DNA from: Saprospiraceae bacterium
GTDB lineage: Bacteria; Bacteroidota; Bacteroidia; Chitinophagales; Saprospiraceae
Direction of reading: 5' to 3'
Length of the DNA stretch: 35,545 nt
Assembly (NCBI GenBank): GCA_013214355.1
Contig: JABSSL010000058.1
Location: forward strand, 1 to 35,545
The notes under the pieces are model-generated. The model saw only the letters and a list, made by a program, of their open reading frames with translations, had not been told where the DNA came from and searched no databases. The position numbers and the translations under genes were made by a program. Of this stretch, positions 5,271 to 29,135 are shown one piece after another. How positions within the stretch are numbered: the stretch's first letter is position 1; each line of letters opens with the position of its first letter.

Positions 5271-7868
5271 TTACTCTCGAGCCCCTTTTGATTTAAGAAA
5301 CTCGACCACTCGCCATTTACTGTTCCGATAAGCTGCGGCTAAAGGTGTACCTTCCCCGGTACTAGATAAATTCAAGTCCGCTCCTTTTGATACCAATAAC
5401 TCTACCGTAGCTAAATGCCCGTTTCTGGAAGCTGCATTCAATGCAGATCCATGTCTGGCATTTTGGGCATTGATATCTGCTCCTTTAGCCAATAGCACTT
5501 CCACCGTCTTATTTTGTCCATTCCGGGCCGCAGCATTCAGGGCAAAACCTTGTCCTGCATTTTGGGCATTGATATTTGCTCCTTTCGAGAGTAGTAATTC
5601 CACGATTTCATATTGACCATTGCGGGCAGCAGCAATCAAGGCATTACCTTGTTCATCATTTTGAAGGTGAATATCGGCTCCTTTGGACAAGAGGAATTCT
5701 ACCGTTTCGGCCTGGCCATTCCTAGCCGCGGCAATTAGCGCCGTGACGCCCAATCCACTTTGTATATCTCTATTCCCCAACCCTAGCATCATTTCCGCGC
5801 CAGTGTACACTTCTAATTTAGCAGCAGTATTCACCATTCTACCCTTTTGATTGGTTGGTAGGTCTATACTTGCCCCTTTCGCTATTAACAGATCTACGGT
5901 TTCCATATGCCCGTGCCAAGCAGCAGTAGTCAAGGCTGTCCCCCATTCTCCTCCTTGTTGATCAATGTTCGCCCCTTTGGACAACAGAAAGGCTGCTGTT
6001 TCAGCGTGACCAAACCAAGCCGCTCCAATCAAGGCTGTCCCATCTCGGGTTTGCCGATTTATAGCTGCCCCCTTGGATAGTAGTAATTCCACCGTTTCCG
6101 TATGACCATACATAGCAGCCGCGTAAAGTGCGGATCTCATATCCCCTTGTGACTCAATCTCTGCCCCCTTTTCTAATAGTAAGGAAATGGTTTGATTATC
6201 ACCTCTTAAACCAGCACGCGTAAGCGCTGGTACCTGTTTAGGATCTGATGCATTAATCAGCGCACCACGATCTATCAAAAAGGCTAGCAGTTCTCTGTGT
6301 CCGTTTTTAGCAGCACTATTTAAGGGTGTACCTTCTCGGTAGATATAGGCATTTATATTCGCTCCCTGTTCAAGTAAGTAGGTTGCTATTTCTAGGTGTC
6401 CTCCTTTTGCCGCACAGTGCAAAGGGGAACCGTGATTGTCACTGATGGCATTAACATCCGCACCATTTTCCACTAGGAATTTTACAAAATCGAGATGCCC
6501 GGCTTTTGCTGCAGCCATTAATGGAGATTGGACATACACATCGTAAAAGTCAATTTTCGAACCAGCATCCAGTAGCAATTTTGCGATTTCTAGATTTCCA
6601 ACTTTAGCCGCAGCGGAAAGGGGGGTATGAGCTACTTCAACATAATGACGAGGACTGAATTCCTTTTCATTTACCTTTGGTGCAATACAGTTAGGATCTA
6701 TCGTTTTTAATAATGATTTGATCTCGGCTATAGCTTGTTCTAGGATCAAATCCGAGAGCTTTTCACAAGCCTTAGTTGGCTTTGTTTTCTCCCGTTCTTG
6801 CGTGTGACTAGGGGTTGTTGTCAGTAGGGCATTCTGAGCGTTTGCATCATGAGGTTGGTTTAAAAGCAGTAATAAGATAAAGATAGTCGGTGCGACAAAA
6901 GCATATTTCCAGTAACTGTTGGGGTTTGATTTTTTGGTATTCATTTTTAATATCCTTTGTTTAATAAGAGATTGGTTGTAATTCGTAGTAATAGCAAGCG
7001 GATAGGTATAGGTAGCTATTTTCAAGAGATTCATTTGGTAGTTTTCCTTGGATTCCTCCTCCCCTTGTAGCATCAGATGGTCCGTCTGGTACTCTATATT
7101 TCTTTCTACATCTTTGCGCAAAAGCCAAATGAAGGGATTAAACCATAGTACGATTGCTGCCAGTTCAGATAATAACAGGTCAAGGGTATGCCATTGTGCT
7201 ACATGAATTTTTTCATGTGCGATGATCTGTTCATAGGTATCCAGTTCATAGCCTGCTGGATTGATGAAGATGTATTTGAAAAAAGAACAAGGCTCTGTCT
7301 TTTCACTTCTATTTACAATGACACAGTCTATATCCTCAATCTGGTCTTCAGTCCGGTATATTTTCCACAGGATTAGTCCAAGTTGCAGGAGAAGGTTAGC
7401 GGAAAACACAATGACACCAAAGATGTATAAGCAGATCAACCAGAAGGAAATACCCTTACTTCTCGGAAGTCGATTAGGACCTACCTGTGCTGGTTCGGAC
7501 GTCTCCTTGCTGAGGGAGTTTTTTGTAGAGGCCGGCTGTGATTTGCTCGTAGAAGTCTTTTTTTCAGCAGCTTGACTCAATGCCTGAGTCGACTTGATCG
7601 GAGCGTGCCCGAAGTCTCCTCCAGAAAGCATGGCTTCCTTGTCTAAAACAGGTTCTTGGACCTGATAATTTTCCAGCAAAGTAGAGAGCATACCTTGGTG
7701 CTCAACCAAGGTTGGCAAAGCCATAAAGGGAAGCACCAAAGCCAAAACGAGACAGCTTAGTAGATAAATTCGGTTCGCCACAAAGAAGCTCTCCTTTTCC
7801 AAAAAAAGCCGATAAAAGGCTAAGAATACGACAATAACAAGTGAAGCCTTAACAAGTAACGCTATCAT
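5271..7868 (-). CDS. BlaR1-like M56 membrane metallopeptidase fused to about 14 ankyrin repeats
   Basis: An 865-residue integral membrane protein. Hydrophobic segments lie at about 2-20, 33-52, 140-168 and 322-337. Between the third and fourth is the M56 zinc protease motif HEKIH (218-222), with a downstream glutamate in NIEYQTDH as likely third ligand. In BlaR1/MecR1 this site faces the cytoplasm and triggers cleavage of the BlaI repressor. The last membrane segment ends in ANAQ. From residue 414 to the end there are about 14 ankyrin repeats (TALIAAARNGQ.ETVEFLLSKGAD type), and repeat 9 is degenerate. By topology the repeats would be periplasmic, where BlaR1 has its sensor domain. Repeats 10-13 are nearly identical, suggesting recent expansion. 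An in-frame TTG at 7898 could extend the protein by 10 residues, but the ATG at 7868 starts directly before the first membrane helix. The BlaI-type gene lies 62 nt upstream in the same direction, probably as an operon. Confidence 0.88.
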   Translation of the reverse strand: MIALLVKASLVIVVFLAFYRLFLEKESFFVANRIYLLSCLVLALVLPFMALPTLVEHQGMLSTLLENYQVQEPVLDKEAMLSGGDFGHAPIKSTQALSQAAEKKTSTSKSQPASTKNSLSKETSEPAQVGPNRLPRSKGISFWLICLYIFGVIVFSANLLLQLGLILWKIYRTEDQIEDIDCVIVNRSEKTEPCSFFKYIFINPAGYELDTYEQIIAHEKIHVAQWHTLDLLLSELAAIVLWFNPFIWLLRKDVERNIEYQTDHLMLQGEEESKENYQMNLLKIATYTYPLAITTNYNQSLIKQRILKMNTKKSNPNSYWKYAFVAPTIFILLLLLNQPHDANAQNALLTTTPSHTQEREKTKPTKACEKLSDLILEQAIAEIKSLLKTIDPNCIAPKVNEKEFSPRHYVEVAHTPLSAAAKVGNLEIAKLLLDAGSKIDFYDVYVQSPLMAAAKAGHLDFVKFLVENGADVNAISDNHGSPLHCAAKGGHLEIATYLLEQGANINAYIYREGTPLNSAAKNGHRELLAFLIDRGALINASDPKQVPALTRAGLRGDNQTISLLLEKGAEIESQGDMRSALYAAAMYGHTETVELLLSKGAAINRQTRDGTALIGAAWFGHAETAAFLLSKGANIDQQGGEWGTALTTAAWHGHMETVDLLIAKGASIDLPTNQKGRMVNTAAKLEVYTGAEMMLGLGNRDIQSGLGVTALIAAARNGQAETVEFLLSKGADIHLQNDEQGNALIAAARNGQYEIVELLLSKGANINAQNAGQGFALNAAARNGQNKTVEVLLAKGADINAQNARHGSALNAASRNGHLATVELLVSKGADLNLSSTGEGTPLAAAYRNSKWRVVEFLKSKGARE

Positions 7869-7930
7869 AATTAAAGACTTTGTCGGGATGTCGATCAAGT
7901 GGTTTTACCTGCTGACCGATGATATTTCCA

Positions 7931-8290
7931 CTATCCCTTAGACTTAATAATTCGGATTAATTCTTCCTTCTCTGCTTCTGACAAATTCTCTTTTTTGGCG
8001 AAGTAAGCCATCATTTTTGGAAATGAATTATCAAAGAAGTTCTCCTTGATTTCTCCCAGGTGTTCCTCCCGGTATTCTTCAAAGTTTTGTGTGGGGCGAT
8101 ACTGATTAGTATTTCCAATTCGTTCGGCCTTCAACACGCCCTTTTTCTCCAAGATTTTCACCAAGGTAGCCACGGTGTTATAATGCGGTTTAGGTTCGGG
8201 AAATTCAGCCAATACATCCCTAATCACCGCTTTTCTAAGCCGCCAAATTATTCGCATAATCTGGTCTTCTCTTTTGGTCAATTCTTTCAT
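7931..8290 (-). CDS. BlaI/MecI/CopY-family transcriptional repressor
   Basis: A 119-residue protein with an N-terminal winged helix (MKELTKREDQIMRIIWRL, then HYNTVATLVKILEKKGVL as recognition region) and an acidic C-terminal dimerisation tail, the normal length for the family. BlaI proteins dimerise on TACTA/TAGTA-type operators and are inactivated by cleavage after the partner M56 sensor is stimulated. The partner is the next gene in the operon. Clustered half-sites at 8304-8370, just upstream of the ATG, suggest autorepression of the pair and perhaps control of the divergent subtilase. Confidence 0.93.
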   Translation of the reverse strand: MKELTKREDQIMRIIWRLRKAVIRDVLAEFPEPKPHYNTVATLVKILEKKGVLKAERIGNTNQYRPTQNFEEYREEHLGEIKENFFDNSFPKMMAYFAKKENLSEAEKEELIRIIKSKG

Positions 8291-8303: not shown

Positions 8304-8370
8304 TACTACAAGTATACTAATTTCTTAGTATTAATCCTAAAAAATTAGTAATTCAACTAAAAAAATAGTA
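8304..8370 (-). promoter_or_regulatory. Probable BlaI operator cluster with phased TACTA/TAGTA half-sites
   Basis: TACTA occurs at 8304 and 8315; TAGTA occurs at 8326, 8346 and 8366; ACTAA lies at 8356-8360. Start-to-start spacings are 11, 11, 20 and 20 bp, close to one or two helical turns. Within this, ATACTAA (8314-8320) and TTAGTAT (8325-8331) form a perfect 7-bp dyad, and TTAGT (8345-8349)/ACTAA (8356-8360) form a second. BlaI-family operators are built from TACA/TGTA- and TACTA/TAGTA-type half-sites. The cluster lies between the repressor gene and the divergent subtilase. Confidence 0.65.
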
Positions 8371-8562
8371 GGAAAAGTATTACTCCTAGACCTGAATAAA
8401 TGTGCTCTTACAGCGTTTAAAATCAAGTTTGGACAAGTGGCACAAAATGTTAAGAAAATCTTAAAAATGAGCTTTTTTAGGACTTCCCTAACAATTCTAT
8501 TGACAGTCTATTGTGAGTCCTTTCGAATACATCCGCATTTAAAACCCTTAAAATCACTTATC

Positions 8563-9945
8563 ATGAGAAATTTGTATCTAGCCCTAATGTGCTTGGTAGG
8601 CTTTAGTACCATGGCTATCGCCCAAGATCCTGGCACCCCCGGTAAAAGCGACATCCTGACCGAAAAAAGTCAAATCGTGCAGGAGCTGAAAAAAGAAACC
8701 GCAAAAGTTAAAGACGTGACAGGCGCCCAGTCCACTCCGGTCATGAAAAGCAAGCATTCCAAAGGCAAAAAAGTCCCCAACAGCTTCGTTGTGATGCTGA
8801 AAGATGATGTTGTGCAGCCACTAGCCAAAACAAAATCCAGCGCTAGTAGTCGCGAAAGTCAAAGAGCTGCCGCCGAAAAACACGAAGCTGCTGCCGAAAA
8901 AGCAATCCGAAAATACGCTATCGAAACCTTAGGCTTGAGTAATAGCGAAATCCAGGAAATTTACACGGGTGCTATCTCAGGCTTTTCCGTCAAACTAAGT
9001 GGCAAAAAATCTAGTAGCTCCTGGATCACAAAAACAAAAAGTGCAAAAAGCACGCTAGATGTAGCACAGGACGAAGAATTTGAACTGGCAGACTACACCG
9101 AAGGAGAACTAGTTGATGCCTACAGCCCCGCCGCCTGGGCCCCTCAATATGCTGATTACGGGAATTGGGTAGCCGGAGGATGCAATTGCACCGGTCACAG
9201 CAAGTGGATCTGGGTAATTGACACTGGCATTGATCTTAACCATCCCGACCTGAATGTAAGAACAGGTTTTTACGCCCGTTCTTTTGTACCCGGAGAATCT
9301 CCCGAAGACTACCGAGGTCATGGCACACACGTCGCTGGCATTGCCGCTGCTAAACATAACAGCTTTGGTGCAAAAGGCATTGCTTATGGCGCGACCGTAG
9401 TTCCCTTGAAAGTATTCCCTAGATCAGGCGGAGCTCCAGATAGTAGAATCGTTGCTGCCTTAAACTGGGTATATAAATATGGCGTACGAGGTGATGTCGT
9501 TAACTTAAGCCTGGGCCGCTTCATCAATCCTATCTTTGGAAAAACCTCTGTAGAGGCCTGCATTGAAGCATTGGCCAAGAAAGGGATATACGTTGTTATC
9601 TCTGCCGGTAATGACAAAATACACGCTCGCTATAAGACTCCAGCTCGAGTTAATGGTTCCAAGATCTATACCATTGCTGCTACTCAAAAGTCACCATACT
9701 GGTGGACACACCAGTTTGCCAGCAGCTATTCCAACTACGGTAAGAATCCAGTGGACTTTGCCGCTCCTGGAACAAGCATTTACTCTACCTACAAAAATGG
9801 CGGATACCGATACATGAGCGGTACTTCCATGGCAGCGCCCAACTTTGCCGGTGCCCTGCTTTGTGGAACCAAACGCAAAAAAGGCTACTATTACTACCGG
9901 GTCAATCCGACTAGCCACAAGCTGTATGTCATTAGAGCTAAATAA
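8563..9945 (+). CDS. Secreted S8 (subtilisin-like) serine peptidase
   Basis: A 460-residue exported protease. The ATG at 8563 gives a clear signal peptide (MRNLYLALMCLVGFSTMAIA, then QDPG). The frame stays open 42 codons upstream, but that extension has no signal features. Residues about 45-160 resemble an I9-type propeptide (VPNSFVVMLKDDV...), rich in Ala, Glu, Lys and Ser. The catalytic domain carries D220 (VIDTGID), H253 (GHGTHVAG), oxyanion N350 (SAGND) and S422 (SGTSMAAP), so it should be active. The C-terminus is short, with no type IX secretion tail. It is transcribed away from the BlaI/M56 operon and shares its upstream region. A terminator follows the stop. Confidence 0.93.
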   Translation: MRNLYLALMCLVGFSTMAIAQDPGTPGKSDILTEKSQIVQELKKETAKVKDVTGAQSTPVMKSKHSKGKKVPNSFVVMLKDDVVQPLAKTKSSASSRESQRAAAEKHEAAAEKAIRKYAIETLGLSNSEIQEIYTGAISGFSVKLSGKKSSSSWITKTKSAKSTLDVAQDEEFELADYTEGELVDAYSPAAWAPQYADYGNWVAGGCNCTGHSKWIWVIDTGIDLNHPDLNVRTGFYARSFVPGESPEDYRGHGTHVAGIAAAKHNSFGAKGIAYGATVVPLKVFPRSGGAPDSRIVAALNWVYKYGVRGDVVNLSLGRFINPIFGKTSVEACIEALAKKGIYVVISAGNDKIHARYKTPARVNGSKIYTIAATQKSPYWWTHQFASSYSNYGKNPVDFAAPGTSIYSTYKNGGYRYMSGTSMAAPNFAGALLCGTKRKKGYYYYRVNPTSHKLYVIRAK

Positions 9946-28169: not shown

Positions 28170-29135
28170 ATGAGCTTTTTTTCCAAGTTTTTCAACAACG
28201 AAAAGAAAGAAGACCTTGATAAAGGCCTTGAAAAAACGAAAACCAGTTTCCTTGGTAAAATCTCCAAGGCCATTGCTGGTAAATCTACCGTAGATGTAGA
28301 TGTCTTAGATGAGTTAGAAAATATATTGGTGTCTTCTGATGTAGGAATTGACACCACTGTAAAGATTATTGAGCGGATCGAAGCACGGGTTGCCCGCGAT
28401 AAATACTTTGCCAGCGAACTACAGAACATCTTAAGAGATGAAATTGTACAGCTGCTGGCTGAAAATAATACCGTAGACCTCGAAGACTATAGCTTACCTA
28501 CTGAGGAGTTTCCTGCGATTATCCTAGTTGTTGGTGTAAATGGGGTAGGTAAGACGACGACTATTGGTAAAATCGCTCACCAGTACAAAAAGCAAGGTAA
28601 AAAAGTCGTATTGGGTGCAGGGGATACCTTCCGTGCAGCAGCAGTAGATCAATTAAAGATTTGGTCAGAAAGAGTGGGCTGTGACTTCTACAGCAAAGGA
28701 ATGAATACGGACCCGGCAGCGGTTGCCTATGAAACGGTAGAATACGCCATCACCAATAAATGTGATGTGGCCATCATCGATACAGCAGGACGCCTCCACA
28801 CCAAGATCAACCTGATGAAGGAGTTGAGTAAAATCAAGCGTTCGATCAGTAAGAAGATGGAAACAGCTCCACACGAAGTGCTATTGGTCCTGGATGCTAC
28901 TACCGGTCAGAATGCCATCGAGCAGGCTAAACACTTTACCGCAGCTACTGAAGTCAGTGCTTTGGCCTTAACCAAATTAGATGGTACGGCTAAAGGCGGT
29001 GTCGCTATTGGGATCTCTGATCAGTTTAAAATCCCGATCAAGTATATTGGTGTAGGCGAGGGTATGGAGCAACTTCAGATCTTCAACAAAAGAGCATTTG
29101 TAGATTCCATCTTTACCGGCACTCCCCAAGAATAG
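28170..29135 (+). CDS. ftsY: Signal recognition particle receptor FtsY
   Basis: A 321-residue SRP GTPase that docks SRP-ribosome complexes at the inner membrane. A short N domain (residues about 15-95) precedes the G domain with G1 GVNGVGKTTTIGKIA (from 122), the insertion-box region GDTFRAAAVDQL, G3 DTAGRLHTK, G4 TKLDGTAKGG and the C-terminal GVGEGMEQLQIF. The long acidic A domain of proteobacterial FtsY is absent, as in other Bacteroidota. It is the last gene of the conserved rpmB cluster, with a strong hairpin after the stop. Confidence 0.98.
   Translation: MSFFSKFFNNEKKEDLDKGLEKTKTSFLGKISKAIAGKSTVDVDVLDELENILVSSDVGIDTTVKIIERIEARVARDKYFASELQNILRDEIVQLLAENNTVDLEDYSLPTEEFPAIILVVGVNGVGKTTTIGKIAHQYKKQGKKVVLGAGDTFRAAAVDQLKIWSERVGCDFYSKGMNTDPAAVAYETVEYAITNKCDVAIIDTAGRLHTKINLMKELSKIKRSISKKMETAPHEVLLVLDATTGQNAIEQAKHFTAATEVSALALTKLDGTAKGGVAIGISDQFKIPIKYIGVGEGMEQLQIFNKRAFVDSIFTGTPQE

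Follow-up and report, generated by a model that had tools for sequence, protein, structure and literature searches.

In the 35,545-nucleotide stretch of DNA that we analysed (the window; Saprospiraceae bacterium, assembly GCA_013214355.1, contig JABSSL010000058.1), we detected a BlaI-type repressor gene adjoining a gene for a membrane-bound M56 protease that ends in a long array of ankyrin repeats. We give a probability of about 0.6 to the reading that this pair is a proteolytic switch of the BlaR1–BlaI kind, built into one membrane, that listens through its ankyrin solenoid. The domains, motifs, gene order and palindromes of the system can be read directly from the DNA.

The M56–ankyrin gene lies at 5271–7868 on the minus strand and encodes 865 residues, as judged from the open reading frame listing, Pfam and the starts of its relatives; a TTG at 7898 is an alternative start that would give the 875 residues of the listing, and the ATG at 7868 agrees with the relatives. 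An earlier note on this DNA had these coordinates right, leaving the strand unstated, and had described four membrane segments, an HEKIH motif and an ankyrin C-terminus in one chain beside a BlaI gene, all of which Pfam, hydrophobicity and motifs confirmed. Pfam scores were far above chance for Peptidase_M56 (40.3 bits, cut-off 31) and Ank_2 (252 bits, cut-off 27.3) in this protein and for Penicillinase_R (101.9 bits, cut-off 22.6) in its neighbour. The protease part covers residues 1–336 (6861–7868, minus strand), with hydrophobic segments at residues 1–19, 37–55, 143–161 and 318–336 and a fifth, weaker one directly behind the zinc motif. Both gluzincin motifs are present: HEKIH at residues 218–222 (7203–7217, minus), its two histidines and glutamate invariant in the 64 rows of A2, and EYQTD at residues 259–263 (7080–7094, minus), which aligns with the EXXXD of BlaR1. 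A long loop of 87 residues between TM2 and TM3 (7443–7703, minus, from hydrophobicity) stands at the position of EL1 in BlaR1, and residues 71–136 within it have low pLDDT in the AlphaFold model.

A 17-row M56 profile matched Staphylococcus aureus BlaR1 (8exp) with an E-value of 8e-22 over residues 9–318, with HEXXH, EXXXD, Tyr261 and Arg294 in register, the two last corresponding to Y277 and R305 of the window protein; for the roles of these BlaR1 residues we follow the available part of the account in PMC9834060. That part also calls Asp210 near strictly conserved in BlaR1, whereas the window protein carries a histidine instead at +9 of HEXXH and has an aspartate at +12, both invariant in the same 64 rows, and it was therefore filed under M56 rather than BlaR1. 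The NCBIfam BlaR1 models reached about 21 bits, where their cut-offs are 400 and 1200. BlaR1 was absent among the fold matches listed for the window model, a list filled by the repeats; for a Pontibacter protein of the window's M56 clade (L109), the top five fold matches were BlaR1 cryo-EM entries (E-values 3e-5 to 2e-3). The system resembles BlaR1/MecR1 with BlaI/MecI of S. aureus and Bacillus licheniformis in its membrane M56 gluzincin with HEXXH and EXXXD, its four membrane helices, its predicted outside C-terminal domain and its adjoining BlaI-type repressor, and differs in the long TM2–TM3 loop and in carrying ankyrin repeats instead of a penicillin-binding domain. Pfam found no penicillin-binding sensor domain with SXXK in the window protein, and no beta-lactamase among the four neighbouring window proteins scanned (M56–ankyrin protein, BlaI, subtilase and ATPase). 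A BlaR homologue of Mycobacterium tuberculosis is described, in the portion of PMC9834060 available to us, as an M56 protein with a BlaI pathway and without a sensor domain; the window protein likewise lacks a penicillin sensor but has a large ankyrin domain at that place.

The earlier note had presented the protein as one BlaR1 with an exchanged sensor, a framing that does not hold in the setting of its own genome (11.2 Mb, 224 contigs). There we found 17 M56 genes and 17 BlaI genes, adjacent by coordinates in all 17 cases, and Pfam detected a penicillin-binding domain in none of the 17 M56 proteins, so that beta-lactam sensing is not supported. Their C-termini vary widely: ankyrin repeats in three, HEAT in one, CarbopepD_reg in one (with a type IX sorting-tail match) and TonB_C in two (one also matching Plug and a sorting tail), while the remaining ten have no further Pfam domain above cut-off behind M56. 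One of those ten, L030, carries repeats of about 30 residues with the motif IHDV. The seemingly singular replacement is one version of an outside domain that is swapped often. As a side observation, two of the M56 C-termini (L023 and L028) match Por_Secre_tail over its cut-off, which is surprising in a protein that four helices hold in the membrane. The two ankyrin paralogues, L018 and L026, share 18% and 13% identity with the window's M56 part, and their place on more distant M56 types suggests separate ankyrin fusions.

The ankyrin domain spans residues 414–865 (5274–6629, minus strand) and was delimited with Pfam, the repeat ladder and AlphaFold. The predicted "about 14" repeats were borne out: 13 are clear and one is degenerate, sitting in a 65-residue step of a ladder otherwise spaced by 32–33 residues, and in the AlphaFold model 14 helix pairs make up the repeats and a further pair makes up the cap. 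The repeats fit the 33-residue helix–turn–helix ankyrin pattern, and pLDDT exceeds 90 in most repeat blocks and falls below 50 in the degenerate one (residues 676–705). Ahead of the repeats, a motif scan and AlphaFold delimit the cap helix pair (6687–6773, minus), which holds Cys368 and Cys394 in a C-x25-C arrangement, a probable disulphide. This cap occurs in four of seven ankyrin forms (the window, L104, L105, where it is found twice, and L106) and in the paralogue L026. The exact spacing is missing in L085, where the pair is shifted, in L107 and L108, which are short, and in the paralogue L018; nor is the cap present in four free ankyrin proteins of the same genome, seen among the top 20 of 44 ankyrin matches.

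Well-studied ankyrin repeats are mostly intracellular, which would favour a cytoplasmic ankyrin part that binds BlaI or another cytoplasmic protein. Several observations stand against that placement, and we rejected it as highly improbable. All seven ankyrin forms (the window, L085 and L104–L108) have three to five lysines or arginines in the 15 residues before TM4 and none or one in the 15 after it, and over 114 M56 rows (110 distinct) the bias runs in the same direction in 97, is equal in 13 and is reversed in four. In the window protein this pattern agrees with an N-out/C-out topology, as given for BlaR1 in the available text of PMC9834060. A protein of 426 residues in genome G161 (L103) has no M56 domain but a signal-peptide-like start, followed by the same C-x25-C cap and repeats of the NGQGSALNAAARNGH type as in the window protein; at a strict cut, two of 149 genomes of the order matched the window's cap together with its first repeats, G161 and the window's own. 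The charge bias, the cap cysteines and the start of L103 together strongly suggest that the repeats lie outside the inner membrane, where they would occupy the position of the BlaR1 sensor, in keeping with the periplasmic location proposed in the earlier note. Signal-peptidase-like AxA motifs after TM4 (30 of 114 against 15 expected; ANA-Q in the window) were dropped as evidence because only two of the seven ankyrin forms have them.

A profile search of genome contigs, with C-termini typed by profile, gave a best 80 loci among which five are ankyrin forms, 53 IHDV forms and 22 other. A BlaI-sized frame lies upstream of M56 in 77 of them; the remaining loci stand at contig starts or are unresolved. 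The five ankyrin forms (L104–L108) come from Roseivirga (Cytophagales), from Winogradskyella, Kordia and Pelagihabitans (Flavobacteriaceae) and from a Bacteroidia bin; with L085 (genome G032) and the window, the search for M56–ankyrin architectures suggested in the earlier note thus gave at least seven, reaching Cytophagales and Flavobacteriaceae. Other Bacteroidota M56–BlaI pairs (IHDV, HEAT, TonB_C and CarbopepD_reg) share with the window the M56 domain, the approximate position of the last helix and an adjacent BlaI, and differ from it in the C-terminal domain. In a quick-search tree that carried a long-branch warning, built from 74 of 101 M56 rows (27 were dropped, mostly near-copies or cut rows) and without nine of the genome's own M56 proteins of more distant types (L018–L026), the seven ankyrin rows form a clade, starred in the tree, with the IHDV rows L109 and L110 (support 98); the ankyrin label needs one change, and the seven ankyrin rows alone have a support of 60. 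Since ankyrin and IHDV rows share an M56 clade, one protease chassis carries different repeats.

This exchange of arrays bears on what the ankyrin part does. Two members of the window's M56 clade carry the unrelated IHDV array, and the number of scored repeats differs widely, from 13–14 in L104–L106 to 6–7 in L107–L108 and few in L085, as might be expected if the ankyrin part were a periplasmic tether or dimerisation brake and the signal were read by the membrane helices or the TM2–TM3 loop. We consider such a role unlikely, since all seven ankyrin forms retain repeats behind the same TM4 and the sensor of BlaR1 is its C-terminal domain, according to the available part of PMC9834060. A long spring that senses a mechanical or cell-wall state, rather than a specific protein, would suit the long ankyrin arrays among the fold matches of the window model, such as ankyrin-1 and NOMPC. 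Fold similarity does not show function, the Pfam scan found no peptidoglycan-binding domain and some ankyrin forms have only 6–7 repeats, all of which makes a spring very unlikely next to a solenoid that binds a protein.

The repressor half of the proposed switch is the BlaI gene of 119 residues at 7931–8290 on the minus strand, which precedes the M56–ankyrin gene. A palindrome scan found three operator-like sites at blaI's own promoter, spaced exactly 20 bp: an exact TACTAAnnnnTTAGTA at −40 of blaI (8315–8330), a copy with one mismatch at −60 (8335–8350) and a copy with two mismatches at −80 (8355–8370). The same ACTA-N6-TAGT motif lies upstream of BlaI genes in 71 of 75 regions, against an average of 0.2 in local shuffles. 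Among the best 80 loci it stands 330–700 bp ahead of the M56 start in 71, with nine sites in the 833,048 bp elsewhere in these loci, and two exact copies lie 20 bp apart in 53 of the 80. The site is shared by the closer Bacteroidota M56–BlaI pairs, and L104–L108 have the same 20-bp steps as the window. These regularities strongly suggest that the three palindromes are BlaI sites. The gene pair carries operator-like sites that fit the BlaI circuit of the earlier note. The interpretation given there is supported in part, as to the outside position of the repeats and these sites; a protein partner or a cell-wall state is a candidate signal. Divergent from blaI, the window also encodes an exported-looking subtilase (8437–9945; Peptidase_S8, 131 bits), for which an ATG at 8563 is the likelier start.

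Beyond the blaI promoter, a search for double sites in seven genomes with at most two mismatches rose weakly above control (13 versus 6 in the window's own genome; 5/7, 12/7, 6/3, 4/3, 2/1 and 2/3 in the six others), and we took up 11 places plus L085; no target of the window BlaI besides its own promoter was identified in this search. Scanning the own genome for single sites with one mismatch told us nothing (40 sites versus 72 in control), and an exact site at C220:47871, next to a TetR-like gene, was set aside. With at most one mismatch, double sites occur at five places in the own genome: before the BlaI genes of C159, C156 and the window, and on C30 and C169. The place on C169 (G000:C169:21625–21678, L216) lies just ahead of a MacB/FtsX permease gene and resembles the genome's own BlaI site at C156. 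The exact motif precedes three of the genome's other 16 BlaI genes; the 13 without it probably depend on different sites. Upstream of blaI in the ankyrin paralogue L026 are the palindromes TACTACAAGTGTAGTA and TACTACAGCTGTAGTA, which we take to recall the classical MecI/BlaI site. In G181 a double site with one mismatch (C1:14322–14355, L219) stands ahead of a small membrane-protein gene, one of three similar genes in a row with no BlaI gene nearby, whose products presumably recall TonB-like proteins.

The sites and their surroundings also bear on whether the locus still functions. The orthologous blaI frame of genus-mate G001 contains a late stop, by true loss or assembly fault, both being possible; its M56 gene is cut by a contig end, and no ACTA-N6-TAGT-type site lies within 220 bp ahead of blaI. 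At the phylum level, 26 of 395 sampled genomes match at a strict cut; with two candidates scored in each genome, A1 had no further full-length match, the C-termini of the 25 other matching genomes lying outside that comparison. Both findings would suit a decaying or orphan locus with no present function, to which we give little credence: the window's genes and three sites are intact, and the architecture with its sites recurs in five of the best 80 loci. Viral origin was discarded after one scan of viral contigs returned no relative. Matches were found in 223 plasmid records, in none of which a single place covers 80% of the query; the 15 matches listed start at residue 328 or later and so fall on the repeats. 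A defence system was likewise rejected, the PADLOC matches of the M56–ankyrin protein lying on the repeats and BlaI having none. The architecture might already have been characterised with a defined ligand, as the earlier note allowed; we noticed no description of an M56–ankyrin protein in the open-access literature, most subscription journals being outside that scope.

The IHDV repeat, roughly 30 residues forming two helices, is the commonest C-terminal domain of the best 80 loci. It matched no Pfam family above cut-off in L030 and L109, and a short UBA-like match in L215 was barely over cut-off. The IHDV region of L109 (residues 407–770) is predicted to be a two-helix solenoid behind a beta domain (pTM 0.43), with a weak likeness to TALE-type repeats (E-value 0.1). 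We also found this sensor free of any protease: in the window's own genome, G000:C30:28403–30102 (L215 6404–8106) encodes a protein of 526 residues that has a signal-peptide-like start and nine IHDV repeats that score well but lacks HEXXH, with an operator-like place upstream (28403–28456). The free gene is near-identical or similar in all four genus genomes examined (G000–G003, 70–91% identity), each time with three sites 20 bp apart that carry two mismatches each against the window consensus; in five other family genomes, the search returned only IHDV copies joined to HEXXH or in edge-cut frames. The sites of the free genes resemble those of the genome's own IHDV BlaI (L030); the IHDV sensor thus exists in both protease-bound and free form, probably under one repressor. 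The ankyrin parallel is incomplete, as L103 has no ACTA-N6-TAGT-type sites upstream. The sensor of S. aureus BlaR1 is released by signal peptidase, as stated in the available portion of PMC9834060, and by analogy we would guess that the free IHDV gene copy could serve a similar end. We also make, tentatively, a wider proposal that we hold to be possible rather than probable: Bacteroidota may share one BlaI–M56 chassis with interchangeable extracytoplasmic solenoids (ankyrin, HEAT and IHDV), together with free secreted sensors under the same kind of operator that would compete with, or relay to, the membrane-bound one, and the window would be one edition of it. Separately, in G181:C31 (L217 4655–9501) one blaI gene is followed by three M56 genes in tandem.

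For the window system we propose that BlaI would repress its own operon at the three palindromes 20 bp apart, and that the M56 protease would be embedded in the inner membrane, the zinc site facing the cytoplasm. After TM4, a flexible, disordered linker would lead to the periplasmic solenoid of 14 repeats, its cap pinned by the probable disulphide. The solenoid would bind an envelope protein, and a change in binding would shift the membrane helices and open the protease to BlaI, its presumed substrate, whose cleavage would open the operon. That the ligand is a protein we infer; that it is an outer-membrane protein or a precursor of one is a guess, the one hint to the ligand being a barrel gene in one of the seven ankyrin forms. 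There (L085, G032), three sites with 22- and 20-bp steps stand ahead of an OMP_b-brl_3 gene (344 bits), after which come blaI and the M56–ankyrin gene, so that the barrel gene and the ankyrin system apparently share one operon. In G182 (C1:222777–227500, L224), sites lie ahead of a lipoprotein-like gene followed by blaI and M56, an envelope-type gene in an apparent operon. In Riemerella, disruption of an LPS-related gene raised a BlaI-family gene, according to the available part of that report (PMC5294843); if that gene has an M56 partner, this would hint that BlaI genes of the present kind respond to envelope damage.

BlaR1 is read as an antibiotic sensor. Here the BlaR1-type switch looks like a general chassis for proteolytic signalling whose outside domains can be exchanged, present in 17 copies in one genome and in none of them with a penicillin-binding domain detected by Pfam. 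That these outside domains include repeat solenoids points to proteins, rather than drugs, as ligands. Shared sites make some of the regulons predictable, and the signals of M56–BlaI pairs without a penicillin sensor are therefore testable by genome search and simple reporters.
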